Positions 1-34,541 of a DNA stretch of 34,541 nt are shown here, piece after piece. Made by a program: the position numbers and the translations under genes. Under the pieces are notes generated by a model. It saw only the letters and a program-made list of their open reading frames with translations. It ran no database searches and had not been told where the DNA came from. The first letter of the stretch is position 1, and the number at the start of each line of letters is the position of its first letter. The stretch comes from a virus: positions 1 to 34,541 of IMG/VR virus record IMGVR_UViG_3300031772_000146, one strand, 5' to 3'.

Positions 1-198
1 TTTGGTATAAAATTAAGGAGTTTCATCACTCTGGGAGAGAGAGCAAAGCCCAAAAGACTGATAACGAGTACTATCTGGAGCTAAAAAAATTTGTTGGAGA
101 TATTAAAATTAAGCAAATAATAATAGATCCTTCTGCTTCAAGTTTTGTGGCACTTATTAAAAAGTCCAACGATTTCAACGTAAAAAAAGCCAAAAATG
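1..198. repeat. Terminal direct repeat, left copy
   Basis: Identical to 34344-34541 except for C at 71 (T at 34414), a synonymous Tyr codon change. Shows that the window is a linearised circular map, or a terminally redundant molecule, opened inside terL. Confidence 0.95.
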
Positions 199-647
199 AC
201 GTACTTGCAGGCATAGCACAAGTTAATAGTTTTATAGCTTCTGACAATATTAAAATATTTAATACATGCAAAAAAACAATAGAAGAATTTGGAAAATATG
301 CATGGGATACGAAGGCAGGCGATGACACTCCGATAAAAGAAAACGACCACCATTGTCTTTTGGGGTCAACTCTAGTAGACACAGAGTTCGGACAAATTAA
401 AATATCTGATTTAGTCGGAAAAACAGGAAACGTAATTTGTTACGATGAAGCAAATGAAAAAGTTGTTACATCTCATTTTTATGACGTATGCAAAACAGGC
501 AATGAAGAAATATTTGAAATTGAGTTAGAGAATGGAAAAAAAATAGAGTGTACAGGAGACCACCCGATTCTAACAGATTTTGGTTGGGTGCGTGCCGATT
601 CTATCTCCAAACGGCATTCAGTACTTGATGTCAGACATTGTGTGTGA
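1..647 (+). CDS. terL: Terminase large subunit, C-terminal part of N-extein plus N-half of a split intein
   Basis: This is the continuation of the gene that begins at 33560; the two join across the 198-base terminal repeat, with the codon frame starting at position 3. Positions 3-353 encode residues 263-379 of the terminase, including the RNase H-like nuclease strand IIIDPSAS (Asp304). At codon 354-356 the protein changes abruptly into an intein: Cys1 in CLLGSTLVDTEFG (block A), then TGDHPIL with the block B T-x-x-H motif. The frame ends with TGA at 645-647, giving a 97-residue N-intein with no C-terminal splicing blocks. The extein stops at ENDHH, exactly where terminases carry the conserved H-x-x-D-x-LRY nuclease motif. 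The missing intein half and extein are encoded at 1211-1474. Inference: the protein is rebuilt by trans-splicing. Terminase identity and intein identity are both secure; splicing activity is inferred. Confidence 0.9.
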   Translation, partial: WYKIKEFHHSGRESKAQKTDNEYYLELKKFVGDIKIKQIIIDPSASSFVALIKKSNDFNVKKAKNDVLAGIAQVNSFIASDNIKIFNTCKKTIEEFGKYAWDTKAGDDTPIKENDHHCLLGSTLVDTEFGQIKISDLVGKTGNVICYDEANEKVVTSHFYDVCKTGNEEIFEIELENGKKIECTGDHPILTDFGWVRADSISKRHSVLDVRHCV

Positions 648-684
648 TACAATTATAATATCACGAAAAACACAGGAGGAAAAA

Positions 685-1317
685 ATGGTAGAGTATAAGA
701 ATAGCGGGAAGAATGCGATGCTAGACGGAATTCGCTTCACGAGAGATGAAAAAACACATTATTATTTGTCAACTACTAAAATTAAAAATAGTCGGAAAAG
801 ATTACATGTTTATGTTTGGGAAAGTAATAATAACGTAGTGCCTAGCGGTTTTGTTGTGCATCATATCGACCACGACAAAAGCAATAATAACTTAGATAAT
901 TTAAAAATAATATGTAAAAAGGAACATGGTGTATATCATACTAGCAAATTAACAAAAGAGCAAAAAGAAAAAAGGTTAGAATCTTTTTTAATTAATGCGT
1001 TGCCGAAAGCAGCAGCGTGGCACAGCACCGAGAAAGGCAAAAAATGGCACGGCGAGCACTCGAAACAAATTTGGGCAAATAAAAAAGAAGTCCCGCATAA
1101 ATGTGATTGTTGCAATAGTGTATTCATGTCAAAACGCCTAAAAAACAAGCGTAGTGTTTTTTGTTCAAACGCATGTAAATCCGCAGAAAGAAGGAAAAGT
1201 GGTGTAGATAATGAAACAAAATGTTGTGTTTTGTGTAACGGAAAATTCGAAACAAATAAATACGCAAGCAGGAAATATTGTAGCGAGTTATGTCGCAGTA
1301 AAAAAGGTAACACGTAA
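685..1317 (+). CDS. Free-standing HNH homing endonuclease between the intein halves
   Basis: A 210-residue protein starting at ATG 685, preceded by AGGAGG at 674-679. The open frame extends upstream to 580, but the strong ribosome site fixes this start. The centre has the HNH_3-type signature VVHHIDHDKSNNNLDNL with a downstream EHGVYH. The C-terminal half holds two Cys clusters, CDCC...CSNAC and CVLC...CSELC, each resembling a small zinc-binding treble clef. Families with this HNH form are homing endonucleases such as those in phage group I introns. Here the gene is in a different frame from both intein halves and has its own translation signals. It is therefore not an in-frame endonuclease domain. 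Its last 107 bases overlap the start of the C-intein frame. Likely role: cutting intein-less terL alleles to spread the element. Confidence 0.88.
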   Translation: MVEYKNSGKNAMLDGIRFTRDEKTHYYLSTTKIKNSRKRLHVYVWESNNNVVPSGFVVHHIDHDKSNNNLDNLKIICKKEHGVYHTSKLTKEQKEKRLESFLINALPKAAAWHSTEKGKKWHGEHSKQIWANKKEVPHKCDCCNSVFMSKRLKNKRSVFCSNACKSAERRKSGVDNETKCCVLCNGKFETNKYASRKYCSELCRSKKGNT

Positions 1318-1474
1318 AAATAAAGAGGATGTTTATAATATGACTGTAGCAAAATATCATAATTTTAGTGTTAACGGTGGGCTTATTGTAAGCAATTGTG
1401 ATAATCTTCGATATTTTGTCGCAACGAATGGTTTAGGATTGCCAAAAAGTTCATTAATTTTAACGAGGAGGTAA
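1211..1474 (+). CDS. terL: C-half of split intein plus 25-residue TerL C-extein
   Basis: An 87-residue frame. The intein C-terminal blocks are clear: VKKVTRKNKEDVYNMTV and YHNFSVNGGLIVSN (blocks F and G), ending in Asn at 1394-1396, followed by Cys+1 at 1397-1399. The penultimate residue is Ser instead of the usual His. The C-extein begins CDNLRYF and has 25 residues; its Asp is the third metal-binding residue of the terminase nuclease (the D of D-x-LRY). ATG 1211 is the only in-frame ATG upstream of the essential blocks. It has only a weak purine-rich stretch before it and lies inside the HNH gene, so translation is probably coupled to that gene. The first 25 or so residues have no intein counterpart and may be an overlap by-product. 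The portal ribosome site overlaps the stop codon. Confidence 0.85.
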   Translation: MKQNVVFCVTENSKQINTQAGNIVASYVAVKKVTRKNKEDVYNMTVAKYHNFSVNGGLIVSNCDNLRYFVATNGLGLPKSSLILTRR

Positions 1475-15331: not shown

Positions 15332-16090
15332 ATGTACTATGATAAAAGAAATAAAGAGAACATAGCAAAGCTGGCACCAAACACGCAAAAAGCAACGCTT
15401 GAATTATATGATTTTGCGGTTCGTGAGGGCATAGAAATACTAATATATGACACTATTAGAACAGAGGCACAACAGCGGTTAAATGTTGCTAACGGGGTAT
15501 CGCAAACTATGAAATCTTACCATCTAGTTGGTCAAGCACTAGATTTTGTAATGACGCATAATGCAACTACTAACTGGTCTGATTACGATTCGCCAAACGC
15601 TAAAAAATTAATTGCCAAAGCACGTGCTTTGGGCTTCGAGTGGGGTGGCGACTGGTCTGGTTTTGTAGATAAATGCCATTTACAATATAATTATAAAGGT
15701 TATGGCACTGATAAAATTGCAGAAGGCAACAGTACAACGCAAAGCAATAATAGTAGTAATAACGTCGGCAGTAGTTTAGTTGATTACCTAAAAAGTATTA
15801 ATATAGATAGTAGCTTGACTAATCGTAAAAAATTAGCTACTATAAATGGTATCGGCAATTACGCAGGCACAGCAGAACAAAATACGAAACTATTAAACGC
15901 ATTACGCAGCAATACAGCAATAAAAAAAAGTGGTTACCAAGGCAATAGCATAGTAGACTATTTAAAAAGTATTAACGTTGACAATAGTTTTAATAACCGT
16001 AAAAAATTAGCTACAAGTAAGGGTATTAGTAACTATTCGGGAACAGAACAACAAAATTTACAATTGTTGAAAACTATTAGAGGATTTTAA
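15332..16090 (+). CDS. Endolysin: M15 L-alanyl-D-glutamate peptidase with two wall-binding repeats
   Basis: A 252-residue protein. Residues 10-125 form an M15/VanY-type peptidase: zinc ligands His64 and Asp71 in SYHLVGQALD, and His116 in FVDKCHLQY. Listeria Ply500 and phage T5 lysin belong to this group and cut the L-Ala-D-Glu link of peptidoglycan. A Ser/Asn linker (residues about 130-145) leads to two copies of a 45-residue repeat of the form VDYLKSINxDxSxxNRKKLA...NYxGTxxQN, known from wall-binding ends of Bacillus and Lactobacillus phage lysins. There is no signal peptide, so release depends on the holin. It starts at ATG 15332 after GGAGGGG. Confidence 0.88.
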   Translation: MYYDKRNKENIAKLAPNTQKATLELYDFAVREGIEILIYDTIRTEAQQRLNVANGVSQTMKSYHLVGQALDFVMTHNATTNWSDYDSPNAKKLIAKARALGFEWGGDWSGFVDKCHLQYNYKGYGTDKIAEGNSTTQSNNSSNNVGSSLVDYLKSINIDSSLTNRKKLATINGIGNYAGTAEQNTKLLNALRSNTAIKKSGYQGNSIVDYLKSINVDNSFNNRKKLATSKGISNYSGTEQQNLQLLKTIRGF

Positions 16091-16121: not shown

Positions 16122-16505
16122 ATGACTAAACAAATGATAATTGTTTTAAATGGCAGGTTACCAGATTTAAATCAAGCTTTGAAATCCGCTTATTCTTGGC
16201 GTGGGGGGTTTGGTAGCCTTAAAAAAGAGACGGAATACAATATCAAATGGCAGATAATGACAGCAAAACCGTTTGAATGTTTTGATAAAAAGGTGCACAT
16301 TACTTACAAATGGTATGAGCTTAATAGATTACGTGATAAAGACAATATAGCATTTGCTAAAAAATTTATAAATGACGCCTTAGTTAGTTTAAAAATTTTA
16401 CATGATGACGGCTGGAAACACGTTGACGGATTTACAGATTTATTTTTTGTCGACAAGAAAAATCCGAGAATTGAAATTACAATAAAAGAAGTCTGTGAGG
16501 ATTAA
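16122..16505 (+). CDS. RusA-like Holliday junction resolvase
   Basis: A 127-residue protein, GGAGG before ATG 16122. It carries the RusA signature RLRDKDNIAFAKKFINDAL (Asp72 and Asp74) followed by DDGWKHVDGF (Asp95/Asp96), matching the acidic catalytic set and length (about 120 residues) of RusA nucleases. These cut four-way DNA junctions, which would clear branched DNA before packaging. It is oddly placed between endolysin and holin rather than with the replication genes, so it would be expressed late. Confidence 0.82.
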   Translation: MTKQMIIVLNGRLPDLNQALKSAYSWRGGFGSLKKETEYNIKWQIMTAKPFECFDKKVHITYKWYELNRLRDKDNIAFAKKFINDALVSLKILHDDGWKHVDGFTDLFFVDKKNPRIEITIKEVCED

Positions 16506-16508
16506 ACT

Positions 16509-16754
16509 ATGAAACATTTTTTTAAAACTTTTGACAGTAATGATGCTAAACTTTTAGCGAGAATAGCTATATTTTTAATTGCGTGGCTTAACCAAATTTT
16601 GTTGCATAACGGAAAACACATGATAAACATTGATAACGACACAGTTTATAGCATTATAACGCAAGTTGCAACATTAGCGTCATCTATTCATGTTTTGTGG
16701 CTAAACAACAATTTTACAAAAAAGGCGAGGAGCGTTGGGAAAAATGGAAATTGA
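16509..16754 (+). CDS. Holin, SPP1 family
   Basis: An 81-residue protein with two hydrophobic segments (IAIFLIAWLNQILL and VYSIITQVATLASSIHVLWL) and the family C-terminus LNNNFTKKA. SPP1-type holins have this length and end. It makes the membrane lesions that release the endolysin. It begins 3 bases after the resolvase stop and overlaps the next gene by 11 bases. Confidence 0.82.
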   Translation: MKHFFKTFDSNDAKLLARIAIFLIAWLNQILLHNGKHMINIDNDTVYSIITQVATLASSIHVLWLNNNFTKKARSVGKNGN

Positions 16755-17058
16755 TTTTTCTACGCTATTTCAAATTATCACATCTGTTTTTATTTTATTA
16801 TTGGGCTATAACCTGCAAAAAACAGACTACAGAAGGAAAAAACATGATAATCAAATGGCGCAATATTTATTTAATCTTACAAATTGTTTAGTAGTAACAG
16901 TTGACAGTGTCGCAGAAATAGCTAGCGAACTATCATCAGTTAAAAACGTTGACGATGTAGCTGGTGCTATAAAAGATTTGAAGATTGCTAGGAAAGAATT
17001 GGCGATATTCCAGCAAAAATTGGCGGCAGATCATATTGTTAGGGGGAGAAATGAATAA
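16744..17058 (+). CDS. Small membrane protein of the lysis cassette (XhlA-like position)
   Basis: I chose ATG 16744 (104 residues) with GAGGAG about 10 bases upstream; an in-frame TTG at 16735 is a possible alternative. It has one N-terminal membrane segment (LFQIITSVFILLLGYNL) and then a helical, charged domain. The layout, one membrane anchor plus coiled coil beside a holin, recalls XhlA-type accessory lysis proteins. No specific motif confirms that. Confidence 0.45.
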   Translation: MEIDFSTLFQIITSVFILLLGYNLQKTDYRRKKHDNQMAQYLFNLTNCLVVTVDSVAEIASELSSVKNVDDVAGAIKDLKIARKELAIFQQKLAADHIVRGRNE

Positions 17059-18259
17059 ATTTTATAAATTTATAGGGGTTTCTTACGTTTTTTTATTGGT
17101 ATTGTTGGCAGCATTGACTCATTTACATGTTATAGATTTAAAAATTTATGAATATATCAATATAAATAATACGTTAAATAATTTTTTAAAGATTTTACTT
17201 TATGCAATAAATCTATTTTTTATTATTAAAATAATTTCTAGAAGCAAAGATATTAAACATATTAAATATTTTTCTTTTTACATTTTGTTAACGCTGCCAC
17301 TGGTGTTTTTAGATAGTAAATTACAGTTTATACCAAGTTTTTTAGTACCTTTTTCAGCAATATTTTTCTTAAAAATGTTTAAAGAATTTGATAACTTGAC
17401 AATAAAAACGCTATTGCAAAGATTTGCTTGTTTTGCTATAATAACAAATATAGTTCAACTACTCATATTTTTTGTAAGATTTGGAGATTTTGGTGTTTCC
17501 AATATACAAAATCTAAATTTGAGAGAATACACTATTATATCTATTGATTTACTAGCTTACTATTTTATTTATTTGAAGGTGGTGATGACTAATGCCGCAA
17601 AGCCCGATTCCGTGGTCAATTTTTTTCTTGCCAAAGCCGACAGCATTTCAAAAAATGTTAGATTTAGCGAAGAAAGCATAATTCTTGACGGTTTAAAACT
17701 CCGTCAAAAAATAATTTTTTTAATTATGGTGTATAGTTATCAATTTTTTACGTTGTTTTTAGTTTTAGCGATAGGTATTATTAATAACAAATTTTATGAA
17801 TTATTAATAATGCTAGCAATGTTTTTTGTTGGTCGTTACATTTTAGGTCGTTCTTGGCATTCTGGAAAACTATGGATTTGTTCTATTACCACTTTTAGTA
17901 GTTTTTATATATTAACTTTATTTCCTATTAGCTTAAAATTTACTTTGCTTGGTGCCGTGTCTTTATCAGCTATTTTTACGTATGTACTACACAAAATAGC
18001 TGAAATTGAAGATGAAAACGCTGAATTAAGAATTATAAAAGCGTATATCAAAAACTTTGACATTGATAAAACTACTAAGGACGAATTAATAGATAGATGT
18101 ATGCTCGCTGGAATGTCGAGGGAAGAGACACTTTTGGCTGTGGAATTGTTTGTTGATAAAATCAACGCTAAAGATTTAGCAGAAAAATATCACATGGCAG
18201 TGTCAACGCTAAGAAATAAAAAAGTAGCATTTAAAAAAAGATTACTCAAACTATACTAA
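17051..18259 (+). CDS. Polytopic membrane protein with AgrB-like segment and C-terminal helix-turn-helix
   Basis: A 402-residue protein, start ATG 17051 after AGGGGGAG. Residues 1-178 have about six membrane segments. Residues 179-330 begin like AgrB peptidases (FSEESIILDGLKLRQK) and contain RYILGRSWHSGKLWICS, with His270 and Cys277 seven residues apart, the spacing of the AgrB catalytic pair. The R-x3-G pattern is present but the second Gly is lost. The last 60 residues (GMSREETLLAVELF, DLAEKYHMAVSTLRNKK) look like a sigma-region-4 or LuxR-type DNA-binding helix-turn-helix. An in-frame ATG at 17585 with GAAGGTGGTG directly before it could give a separate AgrB-HTH product. No AgrD-like pheromone gene was found nearby. 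Function unknown; the AgrB relation is tentative. Confidence 0.5.
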   Translation: MNKFYKFIGVSYVFLLVLLAALTHLHVIDLKIYEYININNTLNNFLKILLYAINLFFIIKIISRSKDIKHIKYFSFYILLTLPLVFLDSKLQFIPSFLVPFSAIFFLKMFKEFDNLTIKTLLQRFACFAIITNIVQLLIFFVRFGDFGVSNIQNLNLREYTIISIDLLAYYFIYLKVVMTNAAKPDSVVNFFLAKADSISKNVRFSEESIILDGLKLRQKIIFLIMVYSYQFFTLFLVLAIGIINNKFYELLIMLAMFFVGRYILGRSWHSGKLWICSITTFSSFYILTLFPISLKFTLLGAVSLSAIFTYVLHKIAEIEDENAELRIIKAYIKNFDIDKTTKDELIDRCMLAGMSREETLLAVELFVDKINAKDLAEKYHMAVSTLRNKKVAFKKRLLKLY

Positions 18260-28836: not shown

Positions 28837-28879
28837 TAATTTACAAGCAAAACAAAATAAAAAAATGGAGGAAAACAAA

Positions 28880-29212
28880 ATGATAGAAACTAAAAAATAT
28901 TATATTGACGAAAACAACAATAAATTCAGCGTTGAAAAATTTAGCGAGAAAGAAGCTGAAAAAGCTAGCGAAATTTTAATAGATTGTGAAGATTGCGTCG
29001 ACTGCACAAGATGCATATGTTGCAAAAATTGCGTTGATTGCAAAAGATGCACAATGTGTGTCGATTGCGAAGACTGTAATCATTGCCACAATTGTAAAAA
29101 TTGCGAAAATTGTAAGTGCTGCGCCAATTGCAAATATTGTAAAAATTGCAAAGATTGTGAAAATTGCATAAATTTTGAAAATCTGGAAGATTGCTGTGGG
29201 TGGAAACAATGA
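28880..29212 (+). CDS. Cys-triplet-repeat protein, middle paralogue
   Basis: 110 residues from ATG 28880, selected because GGAGG precedes it; a frame extension to 28865 has no site. The head is KYYIDENNNKFSVEKFSEKE (about residues 5-25), followed by a short helix rich in Ala and Glu. It then has 21 cysteines spaced exactly every third residue (DCEDCVDCTRCICCKNC and on); the tail ends EDCCGWKQ. The variable positions favour Asp, Asn, Lys and Glu. The head DNA, 28910-28981, is a 72-base exact repeat of 29290-29361 in the next gene, so duplication is recent. No known catalytic motif. Without a signal peptide it should be cytoplasmic, where reduced cysteines could bind metal. Confidence 0.8.
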   Translation: MIETKKYYIDENNNKFSVEKFSEKEAEKASEILIDCEDCVDCTRCICCKNCVDCKRCTMCVDCEDCNHCHNCKNCENCKCCANCKYCKNCKDCENCINFENLEDCCGWKQ

Positions 29213-29930
29213 AAAAATATGATGAAATTGTCCAGTGACAGAAAAAAGGAGGAAACAAAATGAAAAAAAACAAATATTTTTATGTGGATGAAAACAACAA
29301 TAAATTCAGCGTTGAAAAATTTAGCGAGAAAGAAGCTGAAAAAGCTAGCGAAATTTTAATAAATTGTAATGATTGCGTCGACTGCACAAGATGCATATGT
29401 TGCAAAAATTGTGTTGATTGCGTTAAATGCACAATGTGCGTCGATTGCGAAGACTGTAATCATTGCCACAATTGTAAAAAATGCGAAAATTGTAATTGCT
29501 GCAACAATTGCAAATATTGTAAAAATTGCACAAGTTGCAAAGATTGTAATGATTGCGACGATTGCATAAAGTGCGAAAATTGTAACGATTGCGTCAATTG
29601 TACAAATTGTAAAAATTGCAATGATGATAAAGATTGCAAAGAAAAAATTAAAATGATAATAGGCAAATATTTTTATGTGGATGATAACGAAAACAAATTT
29701 AGCAAAGAAAAATTTAGCGAGGCAGAAGCTGAAGCGGCTAGTAAAACATTGATATATTGTTACGATTGCGTCGATTGCGACGATTGCATCGATTGCGACG
29801 ATTGCTGCAATTGTAAAAATTGCAACGAGTGTAAAAGATGTAACAATTGCAAAAATTGTAATGAGTGCGAAGATTGTGACGATTGCAAAAATTGCTATGA
29901 TTGCAATTGCTGTCAAAAATGTAAACATTT
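28991..29930 (+). repeat. Nine-base periodic coding repeats in the Cys-ladder genes
   Basis: The DNA of both genes is built of 9-base units such as GATTGCGAC or AATTGTAAA, each encoding x-x-Cys. The units at 28991-29031 and 29371-29411 are identical over 41 bases. This makes long open frames on other frames and the opposite strand too; those are by-products. Copy number should be prone to change by slippage. Confidence 0.8.
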
Positions 29931-30030
29931 AGAAAGTCGCATAGAATTTGTAAACAATATTTGTGTTTATTGTACTGAATTGAAAAAATGCAGCGATTGC
30001 GCTGCTAAAGGAGTAGTTAAAAATGTTTAG
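29260..30030 (+). CDS. Cys-triplet-repeat protein, two-module long paralogue
   Basis: A 256-residue protein, GGAGG before ATG 29260. It has two head-plus-ladder modules in tandem. The first head is KYFYVDENNNKFSVEKFSEK, followed by 29 cysteines at three-residue spacing. After a short break (NDDKDCKEKIKMII), a second head (KYFYVDDNENKFSKEKFSEA) leads to 19 more cysteines at the same spacing, and a last CVYC...CSDC cluster. The second module is closer to the minus-strand paralogue at 22057 (shared EAEAEAASKTLI). It overlaps the Gp157 gene by 8 bases. Function unknown. Confidence 0.8.
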   Translation: MKKNKYFYVDENNNKFSVEKFSEKEAEKASEILINCNDCVDCTRCICCKNCVDCVKCTMCVDCEDCNHCHNCKKCENCNCCNNCKYCKNCTSCKDCNDCDDCIKCENCNDCVNCTNCKNCNDDKDCKEKIKMIIGKYFYVDDNENKFSKEKFSEAEAEAASKTLIYCYDCVDCDDCIDCDDCCNCKNCNECKRCNNCKNCNECEDCDDCKNCYDCNCCQKCKHLESRIEFVNNICVYCTELKKCSDCAAKGVVKNV

Positions 30031-33526: not shown

Positions 33527-33559
33527 TATTAATTATTTTTGAGAATTGGATGTTATAAA

Positions 33560-34541
33560 ATGCACAAAACTAAAAAAATAGAGCTATCTACTAAACAATT
33601 AGATTTTTTAAGATGTTGTAATCATCGTTACAACGGTAAAATCGGAGCTACAAGATGTGGCAAAACGTGGCTAGATACAGCTATTTTAATACCGCAAAGA
33701 ATTATAGAAAGAAAAGGGAAAGCTGGCATCAACATACTTTTAGGAGTTTCGAAGGGAACAATTGAGCGGAATATTCTGGAACCAATGCGTAATTTCCACG
33801 GAACTCATTTAGTATCAGAGATTAATAGTCAAAACAAAGCAACATTGTTTGGGGAAGTGGTTTATTGCATCGGTGCGGAAAAAGTGTCACAAGTTTCAAA
33901 GCTGCGGGGAGCAGAATTTAAATATTGCTATTGTGACGAGCTAGTAGATTTTAACGAAGAGGTATTCCAGATTTTAAAATCGAGATTGAGTACTGAGTAT
34001 TCCGTTTGTGATTTTACAGGAAATCCCTCATTTCCAGACCATTTTGTAAAAAAATTTATTGAGTCGGAAGCAGATGTTTATTGTCAAAATTGGACTTTGT
34101 ACGATAATCCTTTTTTGCCAAAAGACTTTGTAAAAAATTTGGAAATTGAGTATAAAGACACTGTGTATTATGATAGATACGTTTTAGGCATGTGGAAAAA
34201 AGCAGAAGGATTAATATTTCCAAACTATGAAAATAGTATAATGGAACCTTTTGAACAAAAATATAGAGAGTTCCAGGTTGCGATTGACTACGGAATACAA
34301 AATCCTTTTACGATGGGACTTTTTGGTTTAGGGGCAAATAACGTTTGGTATAAAATTAAGGAGTTTCATCACTCTGGGAGAGAGAGCAAAGCCCAAAAGA
34401 CTGATAACGAGTATTATCTGGAGCTAAAAAAATTTGTTGGAGATATTAAAATTAAGCAAATAATAATAGATCCTTCTGCTTCAAGTTTTGTGGCACTTAT
34501 TAAAAAGTCCAACGATTTCAACGTAAAAAAAGCCAAAAATG
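33560..34541 (+). CDS. terL: Terminase large subunit, N-terminal part (continues at position 1)
   Basis: ATG 33560 starts the ATPase half of TerL; the frame is open to the window end and continues at position 3 after the terminal repeat. Walker A is GATRCGKT (residues 29-36), Walker B is YCYCDEL (Asp126, Glu127), and the coupling motif follows (DFTGNPSFPDHF). The nuclease domain begins with QVAIDYGIQNP, Asp243 being the first metal ligand. The complete extein would be 379 + 25 = 404 residues, normal for this Gram-positive terminase group. The ribosome site is weak (TTGGA), and a second ATG at 33550 is out of frame. TerL docks on the portal, pumps DNA and cuts it at headful. Confidence 0.92.
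   Translation, partial: MHKTKKIELSTKQLDFLRCCNHRYNGKIGATRCGKTWLDTAILIPQRIIERKGKAGINILLGVSKGTIERNILEPMRNFHGTHLVSEINSQNKATLFGEVVYCIGAEKVSQVSKLRGAEFKYCYCDELVDFNEEVFQILKSRLSTEYSVCDFTGNPSFPDHFVKKFIESEADVYCQNWTLYDNPFLPKDFVKNLEIEYKDTVYYDRYVLGMWKKAEGLIFPNYENSIMEPFEQKYREFQVAIDYGIQNPFTMGLFGLGANNVWYKIKEFHHSGRESKAQKTDNEYYLELKKFVGDIKIKQIIIDPSASSFVALIKKSNDFNVKKAKN
34344..34541. repeat. Terminal direct repeat, right copy
   Basis: The second copy of the 198-base terminal repeat; see 1-198. Joining the copies restores one continuous terL frame, which supports true circularity over chance duplication. Confidence 0.95.

Follow-up and report, generated by a model that had tools for sequence, protein, structure and literature searches.

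In S. aureus AgrB, residues R70, G75 and H77 have been reported as necessary for proteolysis, and C84 is also needed (PMC10196373, in the part available). Genes of this kind are carried by bacteriophages as well. The Clostridioides difficile phage phiCDHM1 has an agr3 locus, composed of agrD, agrB and agrC, beside its endolysin gene, according to the available part of PMC3901668; a preliminary description of the locus reported here had rightly stated that a clostridial phage with agr genes was known. The Brevibacillus phages Davies, Emery and Abouo are also covered in that part of the account, which credits them with AgrB, a putative AgrD and membrane proteins. In these three phages and in the Paenibacillus phage Paisley we found an agr-like multi-gene cassette, in which a 219–222-aa membrane protein is followed by AgrB, a short AgrD-like peptide (its identity as AgrD being our own reading) and a 118–122-aa protein. 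In all four, agrB starts 8 nt before the end of the membrane-protein gene, and the genes are arranged alike in two regions of bacterial genomes. The last cassette protein of Paisley matched LytTR over the cut-off (29.1 bits), and the two others tested were below it; this match, seen at the level of sequence, appears to be absent from the PMC3901668 account as far as its available part goes. The cassette resembles LytTR regulatory systems plus AgrBD and may constitute a kinase-less agr-like circuit. Another arrangement was observed in the Ruminococcus phage NatCom_29429 (PV036441.1), where AgrB is accompanied by what by eye appear to be an AgrC-like kinase and an AgrA-like LytTR response regulator, all annotated as hypothetical. 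Finally, transmembrane transcription regulators, including BcrR, represent an established class (PMC10269533, in the part available). Among the papers listed by our literature searches, none was seen to describe an AgrB–HTH fusion, and it is such a putative fusion, encoded by a phage, that is described below.

The gene and its neighbourhood

The window, i.e., the whole stretch of DNA analysed, is one IMG/VR virus record of 34,541 nt. Its plus strand contains a single open reading frame running from the ATG at 17051 to the TAA at 18259 (17051..18259) and encoding a protein of 402 aa, referred to here as P0001, which was matched once in the record. The gene is real, and the open frame around it extends over 425 codons; when the bases of the 2.3-kb region were shuffled 2000 times, the longest frame obtained had 135 codons. 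The proposal that membrane helices, an AgrB-like part and a C-terminal helical domain are fused in one frame was confirmed by this 402-codon frame.

The genes upstream, all on the plus strand, are an endolysin of the L-alanyl-D-glutamate peptidase type (15332..16090, family matches), a RusA-like resolvase (16122..16505; PHROG 1682, E 1.8e-31), an SPP1-type holin (16509..16754; PF04688, E 1.3e-13) and an ORF (16735..17058) for a 107-aa protein whose single membrane helix is N-terminal, after which P0001 follows. The end of the 107-aa ORF and the start of P0001 share 8 nt, an overlap which supports late co-expression of P0001 with the lysis cassette. Downstream, a candidate hairpin lies between 18259 and 18341 (z -1.76). 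No integrase or repressor was seen among the window proteins tested for family.

As to the remainder of the genome, the endolysin and DnaB have their relatives in records labelled as phages of Listeria, Bacillus and other Bacillota, and the closest relatives of the portal occur in gut phages. The terminase large subunit (window positions 3–1474 and 33539–34540) appears to be interrupted by an intein: the N-part of Intein_splicing (PF14890) is in frame with the terminase and scores over the cut-off (41.5 bits), the C-part at 1211–1471 scores below it (22.8 bits), and an HNH endonuclease ORF (580–1317) lies between the two. Positions 1–198 and the last ~198 bases of the window share a stretch of the terminase, with matching translations and an exact match of 127 nt (72–198 versus 34415–34541). 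Because both ends carry the same stretch, the genome represented by the record is probably closed or permuted. Two neighbouring ORFs, at 28865–29212 and 29260–30030, both match PHROG 15341, a family of unknown function, which suggests a duplication.

An AgrB-like middle behind six predicted helices

When the full 402-aa sequence was compared with Pfam, no match was obtained at E <= 1 and the AgrB domain was missed. Residues 179–336 searched alone, on the other hand, matched AgrB (PF04647) with 28.6 bits and E 1.1e-6, over the curated cut-off of 23 bits; a second sub-segment reached 26.7 bits, and a six-frame search gave 26.8 bits for P0001 and a match over the cut-off in 0 of the 14 control genomes. 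Since whole-protein scans missed P0001, searching by sub-segment would seem worthwhile in the annotation of AgrB. The domain spans residues 216–327 (17696..18031, plus strand), corresponding to positions 17–133 of the 185 in the profile. A profile of our own, built from 17 other AgrBs with P0001 left out, assigned 22.6 bits to residues 179–335 versus 10.3 bits for the best of 1000 shuffles, and the runner-up among 7392 six-frame ORFs from 81 loci scored 9.9 bits.

Two alignments were used to follow individual residues: one of 12 rows, comprising P0001 and 11 phage and gut AgrBs (A2), and one of 41 rows, comprising P0001 and 40 AgrBs derived mostly from Lachnospiraceae or other clostridial genomes (A4). 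In both, Arg262 (17834..17836, plus strand), at the place of S. aureus R70, His270 (17858..17860, plus strand), at that of the catalytic H77, and Cys277 (17879..17881, plus strand), at that of the catalytic C84, are invariant. The His270–Cys277 spacing is 7, and it was from these two residues at AgrB spacing, together with an AgrB-like N-terminal pattern ahead of them, that an AgrB-like middle had first been proposed. Because the profile scores are joined by the invariant Arg262, His270 and Cys277, the kinship goes beyond a lucky spacing, and the middle of P0001 is, judged by its sequence, a distant AgrB relative whose likeness exceeds chance. The conservation of His270 and Cys277 thus holds with respect to other AgrBs; no homologue of the fusion itself was found for comparison.

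Catalytic competence is a separate matter. Ser268, two residues ahead of His270, occupies the place of G75, and Arg262 and His270 are 8 residues apart instead of the 7 in S. aureus AgrB, i.e., there is a one-residue insertion. At the G75 position, Gly was found in 49 of 51 readable rows and Ser in 2, both being P0001 counted twice (the tally comprised 53 rows, two of which were left out, one because its H–C spacing is shorter and one because the pattern misread it). Moreover, the PF04647 match extends no further than position 133 of 185; AgrB's C-terminal third is missing, its place being taken by a charged helix and the C-terminal domain. Owing to Ser268, the insertion and the missing third, we make no claim that P0001 is an active AgrB enzyme, and a working membrane peptidase appears doubtful; of the membrane enzyme that had been suggested, the His, Cys and Arg are kept, whereas G75 and the last third are not.

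A peptide substrate was sought in the window. NCBIfam searches of 9 window ORFs gave no AgrD match, and neither did a phage AgrD used as a control; a pattern fitting phage AgrDs occurred in 0 of 616 small window ORFs, and a looser canonical pattern in 9 of the 616, none near the P0001 gene. As nothing in the window was recognised as AgrD, the peptide could come from the host, or the module could have lost its processing function.

Ahead of the AgrB-like part, six membrane helices are predicted in residues 1–178 (17051..17584, plus strand). Hydropathy indicates six hydrophobic stretches before residue 180 and about four more in the AgrB part, and the AlphaFold (AF2) model of the full protein has six long helices in the N-terminal part, in agreement with the six extra helices of the preliminary description. 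Residues 1–178 matched no family in Pfam or PHROG. The last AgrB-like membrane helix continues into a charged linker helix (residues 299–334; 17945..18052, plus strand), modelled as one helix with pLDDT of about 65–80; the mean pLDDT of the full model is 60.3, with the highest values at about 211–345. Lys and Arg number, for instance, 5 in loop 60–75 and 6 in 180–219, both called inside, versus 1–2 in the outside loops. Since the helix numbers are even, the AgrB motif loop and the tail would lie on the side of the N-terminus, and since positive charge is concentrated in the loops called inside, that side would be the interior. The even helix numbers and the charge of the loops support this predicted topology, and the membrane segments and charge pattern fit a transmembrane transcription regulator, whose DNA binding is putative in P0001.

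This layout bears on an explanation in which the AgrB module is an active peptidase and uses Cys277 to cleave either a partner peptide or its own linker, with the freed tail going to DNA. The catalytic His and Cys and the Arg are retained, and the chain following the last membrane helix would be cytosolic and close to the catalytic face. Nevertheless, Ser at the G75 place together with the insertion speaks against it, given that R70, G75 and H77 were reported as necessary (PMC10196373, in the part available), as does the failure to find an AgrD-like substrate in the window; we consider this explanation quite unlikely.

The two membrane parts meet at Met179, where a Shine-Dalgarno-like stretch abuts ATG 17585 (17574..17587, plus strand). 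GC3 is 0.185 for residues 1–178 versus 0.253 for the remainder of the gene, a contrast which may reflect membrane-helix composition or separate origin. The strong ribosome site that had been ascribed to position 17585 was not borne out in that form. The stretch GAAGGTGGTG pairs very strongly with the anti-SD sequence but leaves no gap to the ATG. With spacing ignored, 17592 and 17585, both served by GAAGGTGGTG, occupy the first two places among the internal ATGs of seven phage genes (147 in all), 17585 being second; with a spacing of 4–10 nt required, 17585 ranks 23rd of 131 in six genes, and its pairing is -3.9 kcal/mol versus -8.2 for the start of P0001 itself. The frame opened by ATG 17592 is a different one and comprises 29 codons. 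With its spacing to the SD too short, ATG 17585 is at most a candidate start, and it is a fair guess that the position marks a former gene boundary. It was also considered that two genes are read as one here, namely a six-helix protein and an AgrB-HTH protein from ATG 17585, through internal initiation or recent fusion. The domain boundary, the anti-SD ranks obtained regardless of spacing, the unequal GC3 of the halves and the 8-nt overlap of the upstream gene with agrB in the Davies, Emery, Abouo and Paisley cassettes agree with this; the continuous frame, devoid of stops, the poor spacing at 17585 and the 29-aa product of 17592 weigh against it and make it very unlikely.

The C-terminal tail and the proposed role of P0001

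Residues 340–402 (18068..18256, plus strand) form a helical domain, probably a helix-turn-helix, according to weak profile matches and model helices. Residues 361–399 matched the Mga HTH model with E 0.0045 and 18.0 bits, under the cut-off of 21.1, and the tail matched PHROG 36, a transcriptional regulator, with E 0.026–0.033; all its HTH matches are under the curated cut-offs. Because unrelated families follow closely (E 0.04–0.1), the HTH assignment, drawn from sequence comparison, is suggestive only. A single-sequence model of the tail alone contains helices (pLDDT 65.4), and its comparison with the PDB by Foldseek and VIA-align gave nothing confident, with no Foldseek match at E <= 0.001. 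The DNA-binding HTH that had been announced is thus echoed by the Mga and PHROG 36 matches and not secured, these being below cut-off and the models of low confidence.

Our tentative preference is to regard P0001, encoded directly behind the lysis genes, as a one-component regulator that is tethered to the membrane and contains an AgrB-derived module; we consider this quite possible. The six N-terminal helices and the four-helix AgrB-derived module would sit in the membrane. The module would most likely bind a peptide, and possibly cut it, on the cytosolic side in the vicinity of Arg262, His270 and Cys277, and its final helix would extend into the cytosol, bearing the probable helix-turn-helix domain, so that a change in the membrane part could alter DNA binding by the tail. 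The protein would be made late, with the lysis cassette, and its sensing would take place via the AgrB-derived module. We infer a peptide as the putative signal from AgrB; any direction of regulation and any target promoters would be inferred as well. The regulator reading is favoured by the AgrB score, the R/H/C residues, the inside charge, the weak but consistent HTH matches, the unfused phage analogues, phiCDHM1 and the BcrR class; against it stand the sub-cut-off HTH matches, the poor tail models, the lack of a relative of the fusion, of a recognised AgrD and of kinship with the cassette, and Ser268.

A serious rival, which we nonetheless consider rather unlikely, is that P0001 is AgrB-derived and has no regulatory role, its tail bundle binding a protein and the whole modulating the holin or the envelope at lysis. 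The weakness of the HTH matches and the position directly behind the holin and the one-helix protein, with the 8-nt overlap, would suit such a lysis modulator, except that both top matches of the tail are families of DNA-binding regulators and that the AgrB relatives are signalling proteins. A more elaborate idea, that of a one-protein agr circuit combining receptor helices, a peptide-processing AgrB module and a DNA-binding output, possibly with self-cleavage freeing the regulator, seems unlikely.

Should the tail of the membrane-tethered regulator bind DNA, a single phage membrane protein, expressed together with lysis genes, would combine a transcription switch with the fold of a quorum-sensing peptidase. 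This would give a peptide or a membrane signal a compact path to the control of phage genes, with AgrB reused as a sensor, beyond a role as an enzyme alone.

Relatives of the fusion and comparison with known systems

By peptide patterns, no close relatives of P0001 were found in viral_contigs or genome_contigs, and the combined use of peptide patterns, tblastn and phmmer over several hundred genomes gave no close relative of the fusion. Searches by tblastn of phages (E <= 0.01 and E <= 10) and plasmids returned chance matches and one true AgrB (MT836101, E 0.9); a Variovorax match (E 0.1) was rejected, being a 100-aa ORF with no visible AgrB features. With phmmer, the AgrB-HTH part matched in 10 of 44 genomes or records at E <= 0.1, at least 3 of these being ordinary AgrBs. 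It also matched in 1 of 398 genomes at E <= 0.003, rejected for in-frame stops, and in 2 of 299 at E <= 0.005, one belonging to an ordinary AgrB locus and the other lying inside a 600-aa ORF read as penicillin-binding-like. The tail alone gave a match in 1 of 299 and the N-terminal part alone in 2 of 240, all rejected as containing stops. PF04647 itself was present in 117 of 299 genomes at E <= 1e-5 and in 88 of 249 at E <= 0.01 (72 over the cut-off). The two short, low-scoring complete matches over the cut-off that were opened (156 and 161 aa, cassette-type AgrBs) had no fused tail.

Among phages sharing the endolysin, AgrB was found in 0 of the 50 records searched, of 80 fetched, and tape measure and minor tail patterns yielded no sister phage. 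A portal pattern led to a 5.3-kb IMG/VR fragment (3300031885_000531), too short to include the AgrB region; because its portal is identical, it is the same phage seen again.

Fold searches of the full model against the PDB gave nothing confident, and no AgrB was found by sequence among solved structures. In BFVD, the top match among viral structures was A0A8S5R960, a 429-aa protein of virus sp. cti5L29 named 'Accessory gene regulator B', with a weak score (E 0.035, 17% identity, TM 0.23). The comparison of the fold with AgrB ended in a suitable name and a weak score. As this protein, which was compared by predicted structure, name and length, is close to P0001 in size and roughly two times longer than the ordinary AgrBs read here, the fusion may not be unique.

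Compared with AgrB (PF04647), P0001 has in common a domain over the cut-off, covering 17–133 of 185 profile positions, and the Arg, His and Cys of the active site. AgrB differs in having Gly75, no insertion and the C-terminal third, and P0001 in having 215 residues before the domain, a helical domain after it and no recognised AgrD. Like P0001, phiCDHM1 has a phage-borne AgrB adjoining an endolysin; in contrast, its AgrB is an ordinary one of 197 aa, accompanied by AgrD and AgrC, and a fusion is unmentioned in the available part of PMC3901668. BcrR-type regulators resemble P0001 in that a membrane sensor of several helices bears a predicted DNA-binding domain, whereas AgrB and a peptidase are absent from the available main text of PMC10269533. 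In LytTR regulatory systems, a membrane protein likewise controls a DNA-binding protein without a phosphorelay (PMC6193735, in the part available); these systems, however, consist of two proteins and employ a LytTR domain, and AgrB is absent from the main text of that source in the same part.

The closest analogue found to P0001 is the cassette of the Brevibacillus and Paenibacillus phages. A derivation of residues 1–178 from the cassette membrane protein was rejected as having no sequence support. In the comparison with the cassette, covering its membrane protein and LytTR partner, the hhalign probabilities were 0.2 and 0.05, and in hmmsearch with the cassette membrane proteins, shuffles outscored residues 1–185 of P0001. 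No sequence kinship of the P0001 tail with the cassette LytTR was found. The cassette is composed of separate genes, with LytTR instead of an HTH and with AgrD present; in Davies, Emery, Abouo and Paisley, as in P0001, the functions nevertheless follow one another in the same order, namely a membrane part, AgrB and a DNA-binding part.
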